Part shown: piece after piece, positions 1,979-9,667 of the stretch | Position numbering within the stretch: the first letter of the stretch is position 1 | How the letters are laid out: every line of letters starts with the position of its first letter | DNA from: Gammaproteobacteria bacterium | GTDB taxonomy: Bacteria; Pseudomonadota; Gammaproteobacteria; Enterobacterales; Kangiellaceae | NCBI GenBank assembly: GCA_002401655.1 | Contig: NVTT01000052.1 | Coordinates: 6,256 to 16,506 of the forward strand | Length of the DNA stretch: 10,251 nt | Direction of reading: 5' to 3' | Made by a program: the position numbers and the translations under genes | The notes under the pieces: model-generated | Told to the model about the DNA's origin: nothing | The model's input: the letters and a program-made list of their open reading frames with translations, nothing else | Database searches by the model: none

Positions 1979-3031
1979 CTAGCTAAATACCGTCTCTTTC
2001 ACGCCGGCCAACTTATGAACAAGTTGGTTATCAATTAATTTCGAGGGTGTAAAAGCCCCCCCTTTGACATCATTTGAGAGTAAAAATTGAGCCACTTCTA
2101 CCGCGCCAAGATAAGTGAGTTCATATCCATTACAAGTTTCTAGTTTAGCAGTAATTTTATCGCCTTTCGCATTTGTAACTTGTCCCCAAACATAAGTGTT
2201 TAATTTAGCACGTTGTTCTTTATTAGGGCCTTTTGAGTTTGCTGCAATTTTCTTTTTCATTTGATTTTGAACAAAATTTAATTTTAATATCCATCTAAAC
2301 ATATTCATGCGCTTCATGTTTTTTGAGGCTCTTGGAGACATGGGAATAAAAACTTCAATATTCGGTATGCCTGTAGAGTGGTAAGCCGTTGAAACATCAC
2401 CCCATGGAATGGTGATCGCATTTTTAGGACCGTTGCCAAAATCAATGGTTTCGCACTTATAAGCCATCGGCACTCGAATGATGTTGCCATCTTTACGAAT
2501 TCTTCCGCCTTCACCCAACCCTTCAACAGAGGTTTTTGCGGTGCCTGGGCTAAAACCACTAGCTGTATCAAAGCCAAGTTGTAAATGAGTGGCGTCTGGC
2601 ATTTTGTCTTTTAATTGGCTGGCTAAACAATCGGTTGGGATCACATCAAAACCAACGCCGGGGCATAAAACAACTCCCGCTTCTTGGGCAAGCGCGTCTT
2701 TATCTTGCGCCATTTCAAATACTGCGATCTCTCCAGTGATATCTGTGTAATGAGTCTTAGTGGCAATACAGGCATCCATCATAGGCTCGGCGGTGGCAGA
2801 AAAAGGACCAGCGCAATGGATAACGGTATCAATATCTTTTAAGGCATTCTCAATATTTAGAGCAAAATCTAAACCGAACACTCGACTTTCTAAATCCAGT
2901 TTTTTCGCTAAAGATTCGATGGCGTCTTTATTTCTTCCCGCTAAAATAGGCTTTATTCCGCGCTCGATAGCAAATTCTGCAATGAGTTCACCTGTGTAAC
3001 CGTTTGCGCCATAGATCATTAGTGTTTTCAT
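1979..3031 (-). CDS. saccharopine dehydrogenase-like NAD(P)-binding oxidoreductase
   Basis: 350 residues with an N-terminal Rossmann fold: GANGYTGE 8-15, then AGRN 31-34 after the second strand, where Arg33 suggests NADP(H). HCAGPF 72-77, HYTDITGE 94-101 and CPGVGFDVIPTD 123-134 are typical of the family that includes mycobacterial trans-acting enoyl reductase. Despite the name, most members are not lysine-pathway enzymes but act on varied substrates, often lipid-like. No signal peptide is evident. ATG 3029-3031 has GAGAG about 8 bases upstream. It lies 17 bases after the stop of the upstream SDR gene, so the two form an operon, divergent from the phosphatase/acyl-CoA dehydrogenase operon. 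A role in reducing or oxidising an acyl intermediate of the neighbouring pathway is inference; the substrate is unknown. Confidence 0.8.
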   Translation of the reverse strand: MKTLMIYGANGYTGELIAEFAIERGIKPILAGRNKDAIESLAKKLDLESRVFGLDFALNIENALKDIDTVIHCAGPFSATAEPMMDACIATKTHYTDITGEIAVFEMAQDKDALAQEAGVVLCPGVGFDVIPTDCLASQLKDKMPDATHLQLGFDTASGFSPGTAKTSVEGLGEGGRIRKDGNIIRVPMAYKCETIDFGNGPKNAITIPWGDVSTAYHSTGIPNIEVFIPMSPRASKNMKRMNMFRWILKLNFVQNQMKKKIAANSKGPNKEQRAKLNTYVWGQVTNAKGDKITAKLETCNGYELTYLGAVEVAQFLLSNDVKGGAFTPSKLIDNQLVHKLAGVKETVFS

Positions 3032-3048: not shown

Positions 3049-3879
3049 TTAACGTTGTTTTTTCTTGCTGGCAATTATTTGAGGAACCTTTTTGATCATG
3101 CCTTTCATAAACATTTTAGGGAAAAAGCGTTTAAAGCGATAAGCCTTTCTTGCATAGTCATGGCTTATTACCATAAAAGTGTCCTTTTCTATCCCATTTA
3201 TTACATCCATTGCAACATCATCTGCAGTGATTTTTGAATTTTCCATCCACTTTTGCACTAATGGTTTTAATCCCTGCTCAGAAGGAGACATGGAATCTAA
3301 TAAATTTGTTTTGAAAAATGCAGGGCAAATCACCGAAACACCTATATTTCTATAAGCTAACTCTGATCGTAAGGTATCACTCAAAGCAACAACGCCCGCT
3401 TTGCTCACGTTATAAGATAACATAGACGGCGCCAACATAATTCCTGCGGCTGAAGCCGTATTGACCACATGACCTGGACCGTCTTGCTCCATTAAAGGTA
3501 ACCAATAATTACAGCCTCGATATACGCTGGTCAAATTAAGGTTAATCGCTCTATGCCATTGCTCAGGTGGGCAATCAACCATCATTCCGGTTGTCGCTAT
3601 ACCCGCATTGTTGACGATAATATCCAAACCATCCCAACGACTTTTTAAATCTTTAGCAATTGAAATAAAATGCTCATCTTCGCCAATATTACAATAGAGA
3701 GCGATTGCTTCTGCACCTAATTTATTAGCATCTTCTGCAACTTGTTTAGCGCCATCAATATTGATATCCACAACTGCTATCTTCCAACCGAGCTTGGCAA
3801 ATTTCATCACGATTGCTTTACCTAAGCCACTTGCACCACCGGTGATCAAAACTCGCTTTTTTGTAAATCTTGCTAACAT
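3049..3879 (-). CDS. SDR family oxidoreductase
   Basis: 276-residue classical short-chain dehydrogenase/reductase. Cofactor motif TGGASGLG 13-20, Asp38 at the end of the second strand (VVDIN, favouring NAD(H)), NNAG 90-93, and the catalytic set Asn115, Ser143, Tyr156 and Lys160 (YNVSK). The C-terminal part beyond about residue 200 is longer than in minimal SDRs and ends very basic (SKKKQR). It probably oxidises or reduces a hydroxy/keto group. It is the first gene of a two-gene minus-strand operon and starts 158 bases from the divergent histidine-phosphatase gene, with a TetR-type palindrome between them, so shared control is likely. The start is ATG 3877-3879; no strong ribosome site, GGGCAG is the nearest purine-rich run. 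Substrate unknown. Confidence 0.88.
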   Translation of the reverse strand: MLARFTKKRVLITGGASGLGKAIVMKFAKLGWKIAVVDINIDGAKQVAEDANKLGAEAIALYCNIGEDEHFISIAKDLKSRWDGLDIIVNNAGIATTGMMVDCPPEQWHRAINLNLTSVYRGCNYWLPLMEQDGPGHVVNTASAAGIMLAPSMLSYNVSKAGVVALSDTLRSELAYRNIGVSVICPAFFKTNLLDSMSPSEQGLKPLVQKWMENSKITADDVAMDVINGIEKDTFMVISHDYARKAYRFKRFFPKMFMKGMIKKVPQIIASKKKQR

Positions 3880-3950: not shown

Positions 3951-3968
3951 AGCGAACGCTCGTTCGTT
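3951..3968. promoter_or_regulatory. putative TetR-family operator in the divergent control region
   Basis: A perfect inverted repeat CGAACG (3953-3958) / CGTTCG (3961-3966) separated by CT, with the outermost A/T pair (3951/3968) also matching. GAACG/CGTTC half-sites are common in TetR-family operators. It is a CpG-rich block in a very AT-rich 158-base gap between divergent genes. A TTGACT that could be a -35 for the phosphatase operon lies just beyond it at 3970-3975, though no good -10 follows at the right distance. The TetR gene at 6140 is the obvious candidate binder. I saw no second copy elsewhere in the window. Confidence 0.55.
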
Positions 3969-4037
3969 ATTGACTTTTGATTGCTTGATACGTTAAGCTC
4001 AATACATCGCATAAACATTAACGATTAAATCACAATA

Positions 4038-4868
4038 ATGCAGCATATTTATCTTATTAGACACGGTCAAGCAAGCTTTGGTGCGGAAAACTATGACAAA
4101 CTTTCCCATCTCGGAAAGCGGCAGGCGGGTGTCATTGGAAATTATTTCGCTCAACAAAATATAGCGATTGAGCGGATTATTCACGGGAAAATGTCTCGCC
4201 AGCAAGAAACCGCAGAGATCATCGCAGAAAAGGCAGGATTTAAGAAAAGTTTAATTCTCCATGAAGGCGCCAATGAGTTCGATAGTGAGAATTTAATAAA
4301 ATATTATTTGCCTTTACTTGCTAAGCAGTCAGAAGAATTAGACAAGATTATGCAAAGTGGTGAACACTGGTGGGCGACCGGTGAAAATTTTGAATTGTTT
4401 TTTCGCGCCTTAGTAACACTGTGGCAACAGGATAGCCATTGCCCTTTTGAATCTTGGTTGGATTTTAAAGATCGATGTATTGATTGCCTTACCGATATAG
4501 CACAAATGAATGAGACAGGTAAAAAGGAAAAAGGCATCACTTTATTGGCTACTTCTGGAGGATTAATTTCAGTGACTATGCAGTCAATTTTAAGTTCTAA
4601 TAAGAGTCCTTTTAACGATCAAGCCTTTATGGATATGAATCTGACTATCAATAATACCAGTATTAGTGAAGTGGTATGGCAAGCGAATCGCTCGGTTGAC
4701 TCTATTAATTCGGTTGATGATTCTATTAACTCAGCTGATGACTCTAATAACTCAGCTGATGACTCTAATAACAAGCCCATATTGAAAAACCGTAACCGAC
4801 TATTAAGCTTTAACAATATTACACCGTTACAATTAGCTCAAAAACCCGAATTAATTACTCGAAAGTAA
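4038..4868 (+). CDS. histidine phosphatase family protein with atypical active site and repeat-bearing C-terminus
   Basis: 276 residues. The N-terminus YLIRHGQASFG (5-15) carries the phospho-accepting His9 and Arg8 of the histidine phosphatase (phosphoglycerate-mutase-like) fold; Arg54 (MSRQQETA) and Glu80 (ANEFDSE) fit the second Arg and acidic residue. Where the family normally has the second catalytic His (as in THGG or SHGG), this protein reads ATSGG 171-175, with Ser173. Residues 219-245 are a low-complexity acidic/polar tandem repeat (SADDSNN type), followed by a basic tail. It is the first gene of the operon; its stop overlaps the ribosome site of the acyl-CoA dehydrogenase gene. No Shine-Dalgarno is visible before ATG 4038, but the start matches the family exactly. 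It might dephosphorylate an acyl-phosphate or other intermediate of the pathway; this is inference. Confidence 0.85.
   Translation: MQHIYLIRHGQASFGAENYDKLSHLGKRQAGVIGNYFAQQNIAIERIIHGKMSRQQETAEIIAEKAGFKKSLILHEGANEFDSENLIKYYLPLLAKQSEELDKIMQSGEHWWATGENFELFFRALVTLWQQDSHCPFESWLDFKDRCIDCLTDIAQMNETGKKEKGITLLATSGGLISVTMQSILSSNKSPFNDQAFMDMNLTINNTSISEVVWQANRSVDSINSVDDSINSADDSNNSADDSNNKPILKNRNRLLSFNNITPLQLAQKPELITRK
4692..4772 (+). repeat. in-frame 21-bp tandem repeat inside the phosphatase gene
   Basis: Four 7-codon units encoding SVDSIN (one codon short), SVDDSIN, SADDSNN and SADDSNN. The last two units (4731-4751 and 4752-4772) are identical at the DNA level; the first two are diverged. Units are multiples of three, so copy-number change would keep the frame. 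It forms a flexible acidic linker between the phosphatase core and the C-terminal tail. Identical adjacent units suggest recent slippage or duplication. Confidence 0.9.
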
Positions 4869-4871
4869 GGA
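4867..4871 (+). promoter_or_regulatory. ribosome binding site of the acyl-CoA dehydrogenase gene
   Basis: AAGGA, 7 bases before ATG 4879. It overlaps the TAA stop of the phosphatase gene (4866-4868), an arrangement that favours translational coupling. It is one of the two strongest Shine-Dalgarno sites in the operon; the other is AGAAGGA before the SDR at 7995. Confidence 0.75.
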
Positions 4872-4878
4872 TAAAATT

Positions 4879-6060
4879 ATGAATTTTGAAATTGAAGATT
4901 GGTTAAAAAATCAATTAGAAGAAATACAGAACTTTGTTGATGAGGAGTTAATCCCCATCGAATTGGAAATTCTTCACAGTGATTTCTTTGAAGTAGAACC
5001 TCGTTTAAAGGCACTGAGAGAAAAAGTGAAAGCGAAAGGCTTGTGGGCGCCACATGTTTCCGCGTCTATTGGTGGCTGCGGTAAAAGCCTAATGCAGTTA
5101 GGTTTAATATCTGAAGTGCTAGGGCAAACGATGATTGGTCACTACGTATTTGGTTGCCAAGCTCCCGATGCAGGCAATACTGAGTTGCTACATAAATTTG
5201 GTACAGATGAGCAAAAAGAGCAGTGGATGAAGCCTTTAGTCAATGGCGATATTAGAAGTTGTTTTGGCATGACTGAACCTGCAACTGCTGGATCGAATCC
5301 TACTCTTTTAGAAGCATCTGCCGTGCTAGATGGCGATGAGTGGGTTATCAACGGTCGAAAATGGTTTACCTCATCGGCTGACGGCGCTCAATTTTGTATT
5401 GCGATGGTGGTGACAGATCCTGATGAATCAAAGCATAAAAAAGCGAGTATGATAATTGTTCCAACGGATAATCCGGGTTACAAATTTATTCGTAATATTT
5501 CAATTATGGGTGATGTTGGTTCCGGTTATTTTTCCCACGCTGAAGTTGAATTTGTTAATTGCAGAGTGCCAAAATCAAATATTATTGGCACTGTCGGCAG
5601 TGGTTTTGCCCTCGCTCAAGAACGCTTAGGGCCTGGTAGAATTCACCACTGTATGCGATGGCTCGGGATTTGTAGACGTTCTCTAAATGAAATGATTAGT
5701 TATACTAAAACGAGAATGATCACTTCAAATAAGTCTTTATCCGATTTACAAGCGATTCAAAATTGGATTGCCGAATCAGCCGTCGAAATTGAAGCAGCGC
5801 GAGTGCTTGTTTTACAGACCGCTTGGACAATCGAAAATGTTGGGTTTGAGGCGGCGAGAAACCATGTATCAATGATTAAATATCATGTCGCTAATGTGAT
5901 GCAAAGAGTCGTCGATAAAGCATTACAAAGTCATGGCGGTTTAGGCATGACCGATGATATTATTTTAGCGCATTTTTATCGCCACGAGAGAGCCGCACGA
6001 ATATATGACGGTCCTGATGAAGTACATAAAATGGTTGTTGCTAGAAACTTACTAAAATAG
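4879..6060 (+). CDS. ACAD10/ACAD11-type acyl-CoA dehydrogenase family protein
   Basis: 393 residues, full length for a free-standing acyl-CoA dehydrogenase (FAD flavoprotein). In order: N-terminal helical domain; CFGMTEP 128-134 and WVINGRKWFTSS 155-166 of the middle beta-domain; ERLGPGRIHHCMRWLG 248-263, a signature of the ACAD10/11 group; QSHGGLGMTDD 350-360; and RHERAARIYDGPDEVH 368-383. In ordinary medium- and short-chain enzymes the last motif is YEGT with the catalytic Glu; here Asp377 (YDGPDEVH) takes that place, as in ACAD10/11. In that group the flavoprotein acts with an APH-type kinase on 4-hydroxyacyl-CoA, removing phosphate from the 4-phospho intermediate on the way to a beta-oxidation substrate. 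The matching kinase gene is two genes downstream, supporting the same role. Chain length of the substrate is unknown. Confidence 0.93.
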   Translation: MNFEIEDWLKNQLEEIQNFVDEELIPIELEILHSDFFEVEPRLKALREKVKAKGLWAPHVSASIGGCGKSLMQLGLISEVLGQTMIGHYVFGCQAPDAGNTELLHKFGTDEQKEQWMKPLVNGDIRSCFGMTEPATAGSNPTLLEASAVLDGDEWVINGRKWFTSSADGAQFCIAMVVTDPDESKHKKASMIIVPTDNPGYKFIRNISIMGDVGSGYFSHAEVEFVNCRVPKSNIIGTVGSGFALAQERLGPGRIHHCMRWLGICRRSLNEMISYTKTRMITSNKSLSDLQAIQNWIAESAVEIEAARVLVLQTAWTIENVGFEAARNHVSMIKYHVANVMQRVVDKALQSHGGLGMTDDIILAHFYRHERAARIYDGPDEVHKMVVARNLLK

Positions 6061-6139
6061 GATACTTACTCCAGTAATTAAATGTTAAAAGTAATTTGGG
6101 TTGGATTCTAAATAATGGAAACTCTATGACGGAAATATT

Positions 6140-6844
6140 ATGACAGTCTGGAATGGCGAAAATAATTTCGCCCTTTTTAAAAAGAGCGTACCGATTGGTA
6201 GCCAAGCTATTTGGTCGGCTTTTTATCACTTGCACAAAGAGAAAGTACAAGTACAAAAAGAAAATGTGGCGATTGAAAAGCTTCAAATTATAATTAAAGC
6301 GACGTTTAAATTATCAAATCAAAAAGGCTTTTCTCTGATGAGCCTTCGCGATCTTAGTCAAACAACTAATATGAGTATGGGCAGTCTATATAATTATATT
6401 GGTAGTAAAAGTCAGCTAGCAGAAATGATTCATCAATTTTTGCCTCATATTTTTGATGCATGTATTGGCGAGCAACTTCGATCCAGCGATGCCCCTGATA
6501 TTAAATTAGAAAAATTAATCCGTGGTCATATCTTTATTAGTGAAGCATTACAGCCTTGGTTCTTTTTTGCCTTTATGGAAACCAAGCATTTAAGCCGAAG
6601 TGTTAAAGAAATTGCAAAAAGTAATGAGATCTATTCTGAAGAATTAATGGAATGTTTTATAGCGCAAGGTATAGAGCAAAATATTTACCAATCGTGTAAT
6701 TTGTTTTTAACTAGTATGATGATTAAATCATTACTTCAAAATTGGTATATCAAACATTATAAGTACAAAGCTTCTGATGTTAGTTGTGAAAATTATATAG
6801 AATACATCGAAGAAGTCATAAAAAAACAACTCATACTTAATTAA
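6140..6844 (+). CDS. TetR/AcrR family transcriptional regulator
   Basis: 234 residues as called. The TetR helix-turn-helix domain spans about 43-93, with the recognition region NMSMGSLYNYIGSKSQL (77-93), followed by a helical ligand-binding domain. The 42 residues before the domain are unusual for the family. The ATG at 6140 has ACGGA (6129-6133) at 6-base spacing. A GTG at 6266 would give a standard-length protein of about 192 residues starting VAIEKLQ, but its ribosome site is poor, so the longer form is kept with some doubt. The gene sits inside the operon, between the acyl-CoA dehydrogenase and its kinase. It likely represses the operon and is relieved by an acyl-CoA or hydroxy-acid ligand; the operator is probably the palindrome at 3951-3968. 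Ligand and target are inferred. Confidence 0.88.
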   Translation: MTVWNGENNFALFKKSVPIGSQAIWSAFYHLHKEKVQVQKENVAIEKLQIIIKATFKLSNQKGFSLMSLRDLSQTTNMSMGSLYNYIGSKSQLAEMIHQFLPHIFDACIGEQLRSSDAPDIKLEKLIRGHIFISEALQPWFFFAFMETKHLSRSVKEIAKSNEIYSEELMECFIAQGIEQNIYQSCNLFLTSMMIKSLLQNWYIKHYKYKASDVSCENYIEYIEEVIKKQLILN

Positions 6845-6896
6845 ATAGACTATTTGTAAAATCCATATTTAGAGAGAATATTAGGAATGACGCGTA

Positions 6897-7952
6897 ATGG
6901 GTGAATTTATTTTATCACAAGACTCTAGAGAGCCTGACAAACTTCCGATTGAAAACTTGGCTCATTATCTAGCGGATAAAATGCCTGTCTTTATTCAATC
7001 AAAACAACTTCATATTAAACAGTTTTCTGCTGGCGCTTCCAATTTAACTTATCAATTAACCAGTGGCGAGCAATCCGTTATTTTAAGAAGACCACCCAGT
7101 GGCACTAAAGCCGCATCTGCCCATGATATGGTCAGAGAATATAACGTCATAAAAAGTGTTGGCGCATTTTATAACCTATCACCTAAACCATTACTTTTGT
7201 GTGAAGACGAGAATGTCATTGGTGAAAAGTTCTTTATCATGGAACAAATTATTGGGCTAGGTATTGATAAAAATTTGCCCGTAGAAATGAGTAAAAAACA
7301 ACAATTAAAACTATGCGAGAACTTTGTCATTGGGCTCTCTCAGTTACATAGCATTGATATTAGTTCAAAAGAACTGTCCCAATTAGGCAAGCCGGAAGGC
7401 TATGTTGAAAGACAGTTAGAAGGCTGGCAAAAACGATTTATCAAAGCAAAAACCGATGATGTTGGTTCTAGTGATAAGATATATCAATGGTTGTCGATCC
7501 ACTTGCCGAAAAACTCAGGCTATCAATCGTTAGTTCACAATGACTACAAATTCGATAATTTAATATTAGATCCCGATAAGCCAGAAAATATAAAAGGTGT
7601 TTTAGATTGGGAAATGACCACACTGGGTGATCCATTATTAGACTTGGGTTGCACTCTCGCCTACTGGGTTAATGCAGATGATGATGCAGGTATGCAAGCC
7701 ATTCGTATGATGCCAACCCACCTTGATGGAATGATGACTCGACAGCAAGTATTTGAATCCTATTGTTCTATTAGAAAGATTAAAAGTTTTGACTTGGCGC
7801 CGTATTATGTATTTGGTTTATTTCGTTTAGCGGTTATCGCTCAGCAAATTTACTATCGTTTTTATCATGGGCAAACCGATAATCCGAAATTCAAAAATTT
7901 TGGTCAATTAGTTAATATTTTATTAAACAAAGCAGAACAAGAAATAGCATAA
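6897..7952 (+). CDS. phosphotransferase (APH-fold), ACAD10/11 kinase-domain type
   Basis: 351 residues of the aminoglycoside phosphotransferase/choline kinase-like fold, matching the kinase domain at the front of animal ACAD11 rather than antibiotic kinases. FSAGASNLTYQL 43-54 is the nucleotide loop; VILRRPPSGT 61-70 resembles the LRKKPPG of ACAD11; Glu81 fits the alphaC Glu. The Brenner motif HNDYKFDN (214-221) contains catalytic Asp216, and LDWEMTTLGDPLLDLG (236-251) contains the metal-binding Asp237. Bacterial relatives such as LvaA of Pseudomonas putida phosphorylate the 4-hydroxyl of a hydroxyacyl-CoA, which then goes to the acyl-CoA dehydrogenase-type partner; that partner is encoded at 4879. 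The start is ATG 6897, with AGGA at 6883-6886, 10 bases away. Antibiotic resistance is very unlikely. Confidence 0.9.
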   Translation: MGEFILSQDSREPDKLPIENLAHYLADKMPVFIQSKQLHIKQFSAGASNLTYQLTSGEQSVILRRPPSGTKAASAHDMVREYNVIKSVGAFYNLSPKPLLLCEDENVIGEKFFIMEQIIGLGIDKNLPVEMSKKQQLKLCENFVIGLSQLHSIDISSKELSQLGKPEGYVERQLEGWQKRFIKAKTDDVGSSDKIYQWLSIHLPKNSGYQSLVHNDYKFDNLILDPDKPENIKGVLDWEMTTLGDPLLDLGCTLAYWVNADDDAGMQAIRMMPTHLDGMMTRQQVFESYCSIRKIKSFDLAPYYVFGLFRLAVIAQQIYYRFYHGQTDNPKFKNFGQLVNILLNKAEQEIA

Positions 7953-7994
7953 GGCAGGCATTTCAAAATAATTTAATAGCAGAAGGAAAGCATT

Positions 7995-8765
7995 ATGAAT
8001 GAAGCACTATTTAATTTGGATGGGAAAGTAGCATTAGTGACAGGAGCAAGCCGAGGAATTGGCGAAGCAGTAGCCCGTCTTTTTGCAAAGCAAGGCGCCA
8101 AGGTTGTTATCGCCAGTAGAAATCAAGACGCATTGGATGAGCTCGCAAAAAGAATTAATAGCGATAATGGAAACGATAATGTGATCGGCATGGCGTGTCA
8201 TATTGGAAATTCAGAATCGGTCACAGAATTACTCGATAAAGTGATGAAAAAATTTAGCAAAATTGATGTGTTAGTTAACAATGCCGCTACCAATCCATTT
8301 TTTGGCGAGTTACTTGATACGCCTGAGTCGATGATTGATAAAACCATTGACGTTAACATCAAAGGTTATTTACAAATGAGCCAATTAGTCGGCAAGGTAA
8401 TGAAAGCAAATGGTGGCGGAAGTATTATTAATACGGCATCAGTAAATGGTGTGAGTGCCGGGCCAATGCAAGGAATTTATTCAATGACTAAAGCGACGGT
8501 TATCTCGATGACTGGCGCAATGGCTAAAGAAGTTGCTAGATATAATATTAGAGTAAACGCCGTTTTACCAGGATTAACCGATACAAAATTTGCATCGGCA
8601 TTAACTAAAAATGACAAAATGCTTAACTCAATTTTACCATTAATTCCCATGGCAAGAATGGCTCAACCAGAAGAAATTGCCCCGGCGTTTTTATTCTTAG
8701 CGTCTGATGCTTCTTCTTATATTACGGGAATTAATTTACCAGTTGATGGCGGGTTATTAGCTTAA
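7995..8765 (+). CDS. SDR family oxidoreductase (DHRS4/3-oxoacyl reductase-like)
   Basis: 256-residue classical SDR. TGASRGIG 16-23, Arg42 after the second strand (ASRN, favouring NADP(H)), NNAATNPFFG 95-104, the catalytic set Asn121, Ser149, Tyr162 and Lys166, and the C-terminal YITGINLPVDGG. NNAA-NPFFG is shared with DHRS4-like carbonyl reductases. The last gene of the operon, 42 bases after the kinase gene, with a strong AGAAGGA 7 bases before ATG 7995. In the Pseudomonas lva cluster an SDR reduces a 4-keto acyl-CoA to the 4-hydroxy form that the kinase uses; this one could play that part or oxidise the 3-hydroxy product. Substrate not proven. It converges with the AraC-type gene 11 bases downstream, with no terminator hairpin visible. 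Confidence 0.9.
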   Translation: MNEALFNLDGKVALVTGASRGIGEAVARLFAKQGAKVVIASRNQDALDELAKRINSDNGNDNVIGMACHIGNSESVTELLDKVMKKFSKIDVLVNNAATNPFFGELLDTPESMIDKTIDVNIKGYLQMSQLVGKVMKANGGGSIINTASVNGVSAGPMQGIYSMTKATVISMTGAMAKEVARYNIRVNAVLPGLTDTKFASALTKNDKMLNSILPLIPMARMAQPEEIAPAFLFLASDASSYITGINLPVDGGLLA

Positions 8766-8776
8766 ACTCCAACTTA

Positions 8777-9667
8777 TCATTCAATGGGTAAATAAATATC
8801 TGTCACCATTTCGTTTTCAGTGACATTAGGAAAAAAACTTACGCGGTGAAAAAATAAAGGAAAGTCCCTTATTTTTTCATCGCTTAGCTCTAACCAGTTT
8901 GAGTACAAAAACTCAATTGCAGCACCAAGCTGAGTATCTGCACCGATTACTCTCAATAATGCACAACGTCCGTGAGGAATTGTTCTATTAATGATTCCAG
9001 TGCTTCCCTCCTCAATTTCTGATTCGATACTACAGGCTATATCAAATCGATAATCATCGGGGGCAGTTGTTTGTGGATCATCATAAACAAAATTAAACGT
9101 CCTACTTTTTGATGGTGGTAATTTATTATCCTTTCGCCATGAAATAAATTTTTGGATGCTGCTTCCAAGTAATGCGGGACTTCCTTTGTGCTCAAGAACG
9201 GCAACTTTGGTTTTATTAAATTCGACTATATTAACATCCGACATTCGAAATTCAGTTTGCATAGACTTTTTCCTTAATTGATTTAACTGATTAAAACTAG
9301 TTTCCCAAGAGCTATCAAGCGGTTTTTTTTGAAACTCACGAGGAGATAAGTTGAATTGTTCTTTAAATGCTCGTGAAAAAGATTCAGACGATTCAAAGCC
9401 TGCTTCAAAAGCAATATCAATAATCTTAATGTTATGGCGAAAAGCCAATTGATAGGTGGCGCGTTTAAATCGTAATGCTTTCACTAATGAGAATATAGAA
9501 ATACCATAATAAGCATTGAACTGGCGTTGCAAGTGGTACTTAGAAAAACCGAATTGAACGGCTAAATTATTTAAAGAGAGATCACCATCAAGATTCATTT
9601 CTATATAAGAATATAAAGCTTTTAACTTGGGTTGATCAGTCTCGTTATTCAATAGACTCCCTTTCAT
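8777..9667 (-). CDS. AraC family regulator with GyrI-like effector domain (Rob-like)
   Basis: 296 residues. The DNA-binding domain is N-terminal, as in Rob: first helix-turn-helix about 31-52 (LSLNNLAVQFGFSKYHLQRQF) and second about 81-102 with IAFEAGFESSESFSRAFK and the LSPREFQK signature. After a linker, about 140-296 matches the GyrI-like/AraC effector-binding fold: DYRFDIAC 205-212, HGRCALLRVIG and YSNWL...IRDFPLFF near the end. Such proteins bind small, often aromatic or cationic, molecules and activate efflux or stress genes; the ligand here is unknown. It is divergent from the P-loop gene at 9787. It shows no clear link to the acyl-CoA operon apart from the tight convergent arrangement. 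No Shine-Dalgarno is visible before ATG 9665-9667. Confidence 0.9.
   Translation of the reverse strand: MKGSLLNNETDQPKLKALYSYIEMNLDGDLSLNNLAVQFGFSKYHLQRQFNAYYGISIFSLVKALRFKRATYQLAFRHNIKIIDIAFEAGFESSESFSRAFKEQFNLSPREFQKKPLDSSWETSFNQLNQLRKKSMQTEFRMSDVNIVEFNKTKVAVLEHKGSPALLGSSIQKFISWRKDNKLPPSKSRTFNFVYDDPQTTAPDDYRFDIACSIESEIEEGSTGIINRTIPHGRCALLRVIGADTQLGAAIEFLYSNWLELSDEKIRDFPLFFHRVSFFPNVTENEMVTDIYLPIE

Follow-up and report, generated by a model that had tools for sequence, protein, structure and literature searches.

Which reaction is served by an operon that joins a kinase to an acyl-CoA dehydrogenase (ACAD), and what would a phosphatase fold contribute beside them? The question is raised by a stretch of 10,251 nucleotides from a gammaproteobacterium of the Kangiellaceae (assembly GCA_002401655.1, contig NVTT01000052.1, positions 6,256 to 16,506), referred to below as the window. 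Its source genome has 2.95 Mb and is listed as 75% complete. Five open reading frames (ORFs) follow each other on the forward strand of the window, with intergenic gaps of 10, 79, 52 and 42 bp calculated from the ORF coordinates. They encode a histidine-phosphatase-fold protein (HisP, 4038-4868; PF00300), an ACAD homologue of the ACAD10/11-LvaC type (4879-6060; PF00441/02770/02771), a TetR-family regulator (6140-6844; PF00440), an APH-fold candidate hydroxyacyl-CoA kinase (6897-7952; PF01636) and a PRK07035-like short-chain dehydrogenase/reductase (SDR) oxidoreductase (7995-8765; PF13561; NF005446 at 354 bits, below the 373 cut-off). ORF coordinates and Pfam matches agree with the arrangement given in a preliminary description of this DNA, which spoke of a five-gene order but left the TetR gene between the ACAD and the kinase unnamed.

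On balance, we favour the reading that this catabolic operon, under the control of TetR, channels hydroxylated acyl-CoAs into beta-oxidation, with HisP as a partner other than an ordinary phosphatase. The kinase would phosphorylate, at the expense of ATP, a hydroxyl group of the acyl-CoA, most likely at C4. The ACAD, with Asp377 as the base and R249/H257/R260 holding the phosphate, would then expel this phosphate with transient use of FAD, giving an enoyl-CoA. The SDR might reduce a ketoacyl-CoA to the hydroxyacyl-CoA, a role like that of LvaD, or oxidize some later intermediate. HisP would be a dedicated partner of the kinase-ACAD pair with an altered catalytic centre, most likely binding the phospho-acyl-CoA or the kinase and limiting the phosphorylated intermediate. 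Finally, the TetR protein would bind a palindrome in the divergent promoter and control both the operon and the neighbouring genes until relieved by an acyl-CoA.

Active sites and clades of the dehydrogenase and the kinase

The signature RLGPGRIHHCMR occupies residues 249-260 of the ACAD and Asp377 is found at the catalytic-base position, as had been noticed earlier. The best solved relatives of the protein are the ACAD11 structures 2wbi, 8v3u and 8v3v (284-278 bits) together with 4hr3 (278 bits), and the next solved structure follows at 167 bits. Mapped by eye on the structure-match alignment, R249, H257, R260 and D377 correspond to R626, H634, R637 and D753 of mouse ACAD11, residues that the available text of PMC12440821 ties to phosphoacyl-CoA recognition and catalysis. 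The ACAD and kinase trees are quick maximum-likelihood searches on rows within a length range, supported by the Shimodaira-Hasegawa-like approximate likelihood ratio test (SH-aLRT) only, and ACAD10, LvaA and LvaC were not included in them. In the ACAD tree, 57 window-type sequences form one side of a branch (clade I, SH-aLRT 99), 19 sequences including human ACAD11 form one side of another (clade II, SH-aLRT 100), and both clades, together with row L105, are separated from 11 other ACADs (SH-aLRT 100). L105, a Massilia sequence devoid of the RLGPGR motif, lies between the clades and this outgroup and was excluded from the clade counts. All four residues are present in 57/57 rows of clade I and 19/19 rows of clade II; in the 11 outgroup rows, which align poorly at the R/H/R site, none of them is seen.

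Around this conserved site the two clades diverge. Residue 376, just before the base, is Tyr in 55 and Phe in 2 members of clade I but Ala in all 19 members of clade II; residue 261, beside R260, is Trp in 57/57 rows of clade I and T, S, A, L, C or V in clade II. The window ACAD lies outside the clade holding human ACAD11 and shares 41.5% identity with the human segment, versus 55.9-59.2% for the 11 best bacterial rows of clade II.

The kinase shows a comparable pattern. Its best sequence matches in the PDB are 9o56 (262 bits), 3dxp (146 bits) and the ACAD11 kinase (144 bits), and its model (mean predicted local distance difference test score, pLDDT, 91.7) has 3dxp as top Foldseek match. By eye, D216 and N221 map to the catalytic D220 and N225 of ACAD11, and R80 and R172 to its CoA-contacting R86 and R176. 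These four residues and D237 are invariant in 29/29 rows of alignment A3, composed of the window kinase and 28 of the 89 listed kinases. Identity to the mouse ACAD11 kinase segment is 30.6%. In the kinase tree, 91 window-type rows including 9o56 are split from the mouse ACAD11 kinase, 3dxp and eight bacterial rows (SH-aLRT 97), and the window kinase is thus not placed with the ACAD11 kinase. The kinase and ACAD splits do not coincide, as clade II ACADs are paired with kinases of either type: for instance, window-type in L097 and L100, the other type in L160 and L169.

Since the signature residues of both enzymes are kept, phosphorylation of a hydroxyacyl-CoA followed by elimination of the phosphate is the likely activity of the pair, and their assignment to the LvaA/LvaC-ACAD10/11 kind is upheld by the active-site residues and homology. 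In line with this chemistry, the available text of PMC11342911 reports that Burkholderia relatives of the kinase and ACAD can replace the corresponding ACAD10 parts with 4-hydroxyhexanoyl-CoA. The separate clades and the differing residues indicate that the window enzymes are related to ACAD11 as cousins and not as orthologues, with a probably different pocket. To call the locus a split ACAD10, as was done previously, is therefore too loose.

HisP and its altered catalytic centre

HisP possesses the RHG motif, the second Arg and the acid Glu of branch 1 of the histidine phosphatases, but its second catalytic His is replaced by Ser, a feature that lay beyond the preliminary description. R8, H9, R54, E80 and Ser173 are invariant in 46/46 rows of alignment A1 and kept in 42/42 further places outside the own genome. 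Before A1 was built, three near copies (L022, L063, L065) and three rows with an RHA motif (L011, L037, L044) were dropped; L011 and L044 also read TSGG at the Ser position, where L037 is masked. Alignment A2 leaves out, in addition, seven rows from a plasmid collection. The C-terminal His is described as fully conserved in the histidine phosphatase alignment of PMC3866925, as far as its available text goes, and two other PF00300 genes of the own genome keep, by reading, a His at this position. The HisP model (mean pLDDT 87.4) has the histidine-phosphatase fold, with PGAM5 as best structural match, and predicts Ser173 right after strand 167-172 and ahead of helix 174-185. That Ser173 could be a trait of operon-linked HisP only was rejected, because unlinked HisP genes also have it. 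Within the window gene, a 21-bp tandem repeat of 3.6 copies (4697-4772) codes for a low-complexity insert; in L009, a close relative, HisP has 21 residues fewer.

The association of HisP with the enzyme pair was assessed in 249 Pseudomonadota genomes, with cut-offs of E<=1e-60 for the kinase and E<=1e-90 for the ACAD. The kinase is found in 37 of the 41 genomes with HisP versus 30 of the 208 without it, and the ACAD in 39/41 versus 33/208. These 41 genomes belong to 12 families, 27 of them to three families, and the counts are uncorrected for shared ancestry. At gene level, a kinase or ACAD gene is found no more than 8 kb away from 20 of 43 HisP genes, or from 21 if the weaker L173 kinase is counted. 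A particular arrangement is seen in family f11, where six of the eight HisP genomes (L142-L144, L147-L149) carry HisP 0.6-0.8 kb from a window-type kinase and an SDR and have their ACAD gene at another genomic site.

Several results speak against a strict partnership. HisP is not always linked, as 23/43 genes (22 counting L173) are unlinked, a few of them on short contigs; for those 23, the tie to the pair rests on co-occurrence. Four of the 41 HisP genomes have no kinase at the cut-off. A search for fusions with the window HisP as query gave none among 694 candidates, and one with the HisP of L067 gave two among 1302. The first of these, P0003, is a 597-residue kinase-HisP fusion with both domains complete and FTSGG present, but it is a singleton and may be a stop-loss or an assembly artefact; in the second, the HisP part breaks off into an unrelated tail. 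Moreover, since the nucleophile His, both Args and the Glu are kept, HisP may still be catalytic.

This last point leads to the most serious alternative, namely that HisP, Ser173 notwithstanding, works as a phosphatase and returns dead-end 4-phosphoacyl-CoA or free 4-phospho acids to the hydroxy form. The invariance of R8, H9, R54 and E80 in all 46 and 42 sequences indicates that the nucleophile and the phosphate pocket are under selection, and free 4-phosphohydroxyhexanoate was measured in cells, according to the available text of PMC11342911. On the other hand, a His regarded as fully conserved elsewhere is Ser in every member examined, and a phosphatase beside a kinase would create a futile cycle unless it were selective. 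We hold such a repair activity to be possible but doubtful. That the other catalytic residues never vary speaks for a protein that binds phosphate or has a modified catalysis, and sequence does not choose between a governor of the kinase and a repairer of its products.

Gene neighbourhood and putative operator

Conservation of the module was examined at the best 80 of 320 kinase matches, a choice that favours closeness to the query. Among these loci, 59 have at least 4.5 kb upstream, 64 at least 2.6 kb downstream, and 49 are covered on both sides; neighbour families, including electron transfer flavoprotein (ETF), were assigned by Pfam. The closest locus found belongs to the metagenome-assembled genome Kangiella sp. 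NORP56 (kinase 92%, ACAD 97%). The module occurs in Pseudomonadota, Thermodesulfobacteriota and Spirochaetota. Near the kinase of the 59 upstream-complete loci, the ACAD is present in 52, TetR in 45, HisP in 40 and all three in 28; the downstream SDR is present in 28 of the 64 downstream-complete loci, where a 3-hydroxyacyl-CoA dehydrogenase (15 loci) and an enoyl-CoA hydratase (7 loci) also occur nearby. HisP and the ACAD are found together at 33 of the 49 fully covered loci. Joint recurrence of these genes in tens of genomes that are only distantly related places their grouping beyond chance. The order of the genes is ACAD-SDR-APH-HisP-SDR in Pseudoalteromonas and HisP-APH-SDR-ACAD in Caballeronia, and is also changed in Azospirillum, Ideonella, Streptomyces and Deinococcus. 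No annotated HisP lies within 6 kb at the Cytobacillus, Ruegeria and Massilia loci, and the Gemmatirosa locus yielded no HisP. The proposal that a histidine phosphatase stands where ACAD10 has its HAD domain thus holds for the presence of a phosphatase-fold gene; the position is an analogy only and not exact, as several relatives have another gene order or no HisP.

A palindrome, AACGAACGNNCGTTCGTT, is located upstream of the first operon gene. The window copy, AGCGAACGCTCGTTCGTT, a putative TetR operator without assigned strand, lies at 3951-3968, 69 bp before the HisP start, and is followed immediately by a TTGACT hexamer (3970-3975) that was read from the sequence and is unlisted by the promoter scan. 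This sigma-70 scan gave 22 hits where 18.5 are expected by chance (sd 4.2) and was no better than chance. The palindrome was first noticed in 30 upstream regions, those of the window and of the same loci, and the following counts are not on fresh data. It precedes the first gene at 43/72 loci with up to three mismatches, versus 0-6 for 40 shuffled controls, and at 50/72 loci with up to four. At this looser setting the controls reached 0-33 loci; that one shuffled palindrome attained 33/72 tells against the motif, the next highest being 20 and 15. Over the 1.245 Mb of the 80 loci there are 69 matches with up to three mismatches (overlapping shifts counted apart), 62 of them, in 42 loci, no more than 450 bp ahead of an operon gene, and 20 arm-shuffled palindromes gave 1-18 matches in the same DNA. 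With up to four mismatches, it is found at 46 of the 54 loci whose gene run includes TetR, versus 4 of the 18 others (Fisher 1.9e-6, a value too small because the loci are related and were also used to find the motif). Upstream of the operon, it is kept from Kangiellaceae to Thermodesulfobacteriota and Spirochaetota. In the helix-turn-helix (HTH) region of TetR, S79, G81, Y84, Y86 and K90 are invariant in 63 rows; about 45 residues (6140-6270) precede this region, the last part of them similar in relatives. For the own genome, which is 75% complete, the idea of a wide TetR regulon was rejected, with 10 matches of up to three mismatches versus 20 for a reversed control pattern; the window site, with one mismatch, stands out, and one other site has two. 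The palindrome could help to identify the inducer and, through it, the substrate.

Two genes diverge from the operon on the reverse strand: a PRK05650-like SDR (3049-3879) and a saccharopine-dehydrogenase-like NAD(P)-binding protein (1979-3031; PF03435), a possible member of the regulon. At 18 of the 59 upstream-complete loci, such a saccharopine-dehydrogenase-like gene stands no more than 7 kb from the kinase and in the opposite orientation, and the opposite-strand SDR flank also occurs at 18 of the 59. On the other side, an AraC/GyrI-like regulator (8777-9667), convergent with the downstream SDR, has a match only in L009 among the 80 loci. Genes of the dihydrodipicolinate-synthase family, of a hexapeptide-repeat protein and of a SpoU methylase (12-1773) are apparently unrelated to the operon.

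The whole scheme has to be weighed against a number of contrary observations. The full five-gene set is present at only 14 of the 49 fully covered loci. HisP is missing at 19/59 and the ACAD at 7/59 upstream-complete loci. The ACAD lacks a kinase at the cut-off in 5 of 72 genomes, and identity to the ACAD11 segments reaches only 41.5% for the window's ACAD and 30.6% for its kinase. We found no enzyme of the window clades whose activity had been measured. The chief doubts on the kinase-ACAD chemistry come from the clade I pocket, whose residues 376 and 261 suggest that the substrate or the chemistry may differ from those of ACAD11, and from ETF genes, which are found within 7 kb of the kinase at 30 of the 59 upstream-complete loci, with both subunits on the opposite strand at 21. 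Indeed, a redox-neutral enzyme would not need ETF, and a redox-coupled reaction is therefore possible. ETF beta and alpha genes stand upstream on the opposite strand at Thermodesulfobacteriota and Spirochaetota loci (L028, L067, L073 and others), a neighbourhood in other phyla that had not been seen from the window.

The ACAD could accordingly be a genuine alpha,beta-dehydrogenase with ETF as its electron acceptor, while the kinase would act on another metabolite or prepare a substrate that is then oxidized. This would suit the ETF neighbours, at many of whose loci the palindrome precedes the first operon gene on the side facing ETF, and also the Tyr or Phe before the base in clade I. However, the ACAD has an Asp base and an invariant R/H/R site, ETF is absent from all 18 loci that share the window's divergent SDR flank, and ETF genes serve ordinary beta-oxidation too. 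Furthermore, all 67 kinase genomes of the Pseudomonadota set contain the ACAD, even if the reverse does not always hold. We regard this alternative as unlikely. Conservation of both active sites and the lack of any kinase genome without the ACAD make phosphorylation and elimination by the pair the best reading.

Relation to known systems

It was not until 2024-25 that ACAD10 and ACAD11 were reported as the mammalian enzymes that break down 4-hydroxy acids. They share with the window an APH-fold kinase and an ACAD with an Asp base and the R/H/R site (available text of PMC12440821 and PMC11342911). Here, in contrast, kinase and ACAD are separate genes outside the ACAD11 clades, accompanied by their own TetR, palindrome, HisP and SDR, and there is no HAD domain.

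The P. putida lva operon (LvaA/B/C/D/E), in the available accounts, likewise groups kinase, ACAD and SDR; the window differs by the presence of TetR and HisP and by the lack of an LvaB-sized gene, ligase, transporter and LvaR. The operon gaps leave no room for an LvaB-sized gene, the rest of the genome not having been searched for LvaB, and no CoA ligase is encoded among the window's 12 distinct ORFs of at least 90 aa, in agreement with the preliminary description; 12 AMP-binding matches occur elsewhere in the own genome. Its other suggestion, a variant of the lva layout, fits poorly with an own TetR and palindrome and with both enzymes placed outside the ACAD11 clades (in trees without LvaA and LvaC).

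A nearer parallel is a levulinate-associated region of P. citronellolis LA18T, in which the available text of PMC6692424 (2019) places a histidine phosphatase beside LvaA, LvaC and LvaD homologues, with no LvaB; HisP in such a cluster is hence not new. This region differs in gene order, in its adjacent ligase and transporter and in its LvaR-type regulator. It would support the idea that the window operon is the lva levulinate pathway in another gene order, which we consider improbable: no CoA ligase, transporter or sigma-54 LvaR was seen in the window, where TetR is present instead, and the window ACAD stands outside the ACAD11 clade (tree without lva proteins), whereas LvaC is 56% identical to ACAD11 and 62% to ACAD10 (available text of PMC11342911). 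The 25-hydroxy steroid kinase (PMC8449060), too, is an APH-like kinase that phosphorylates an alcohol before its elimination, and its structures 9ft5/9fsg come second, fourth and fifth in the Foldseek search with the kinase model, but the least probable proposal of all, a kinase for a hydroxylated isoprenoid or steroid with the ACAD handling the side-chain CoA ester, conflicts with an identity of only 18-19%, with the best PDB sequence matches (9o56, 3dxp and the ACAD11 kinase) and with the lack of recognized sterol genes in the window.

In the literature, PMC6692424 was the only paper found to describe, in its available text, a HisP-containing operon of this kind, and no such cluster was seen in the available text of an A. 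baumannii mucin paper (PMC5757984). The palindrome shares the half sites CNAACG/CGTTNG with the operator of T. thermophilus PaaR/TTHA0973 (available text of PMC6651687); the regulon there is another one. No paper was recognized on the spread of the module, the Ser substitution in HisP, the separate clades or the palindrome, which are new here. PA1828-PA1831 are possible P. aeruginosa homologues, for which no paper was found.

Compared with branch 1 of the histidine phosphatase superfamily, HisP has the same RHG motif, second Arg, Glu and fold but Ser for the second catalytic His in all rows examined. A protein without one catalytic residue thus accompanies the same kind of enzyme pair across bacteria, which recalls the HAD domain of ACAD10, described in the available text of PMC11342911 as having an incomplete motif and negligible phosphatase activity and as restraining the kinase. 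We tentatively propose, as one possibility among others, that HisP is an altered phosphatase fold governing the kinase, and that LvaB and HisP in bacteria and the degenerate HAD domain in animals could be unrelated partners controlling the phosphoacyl-CoA. If HisP does restrain or channel the kinase, it would represent an independent solution to the same problem as in ACAD10, in simple and testable bacterial proteins.

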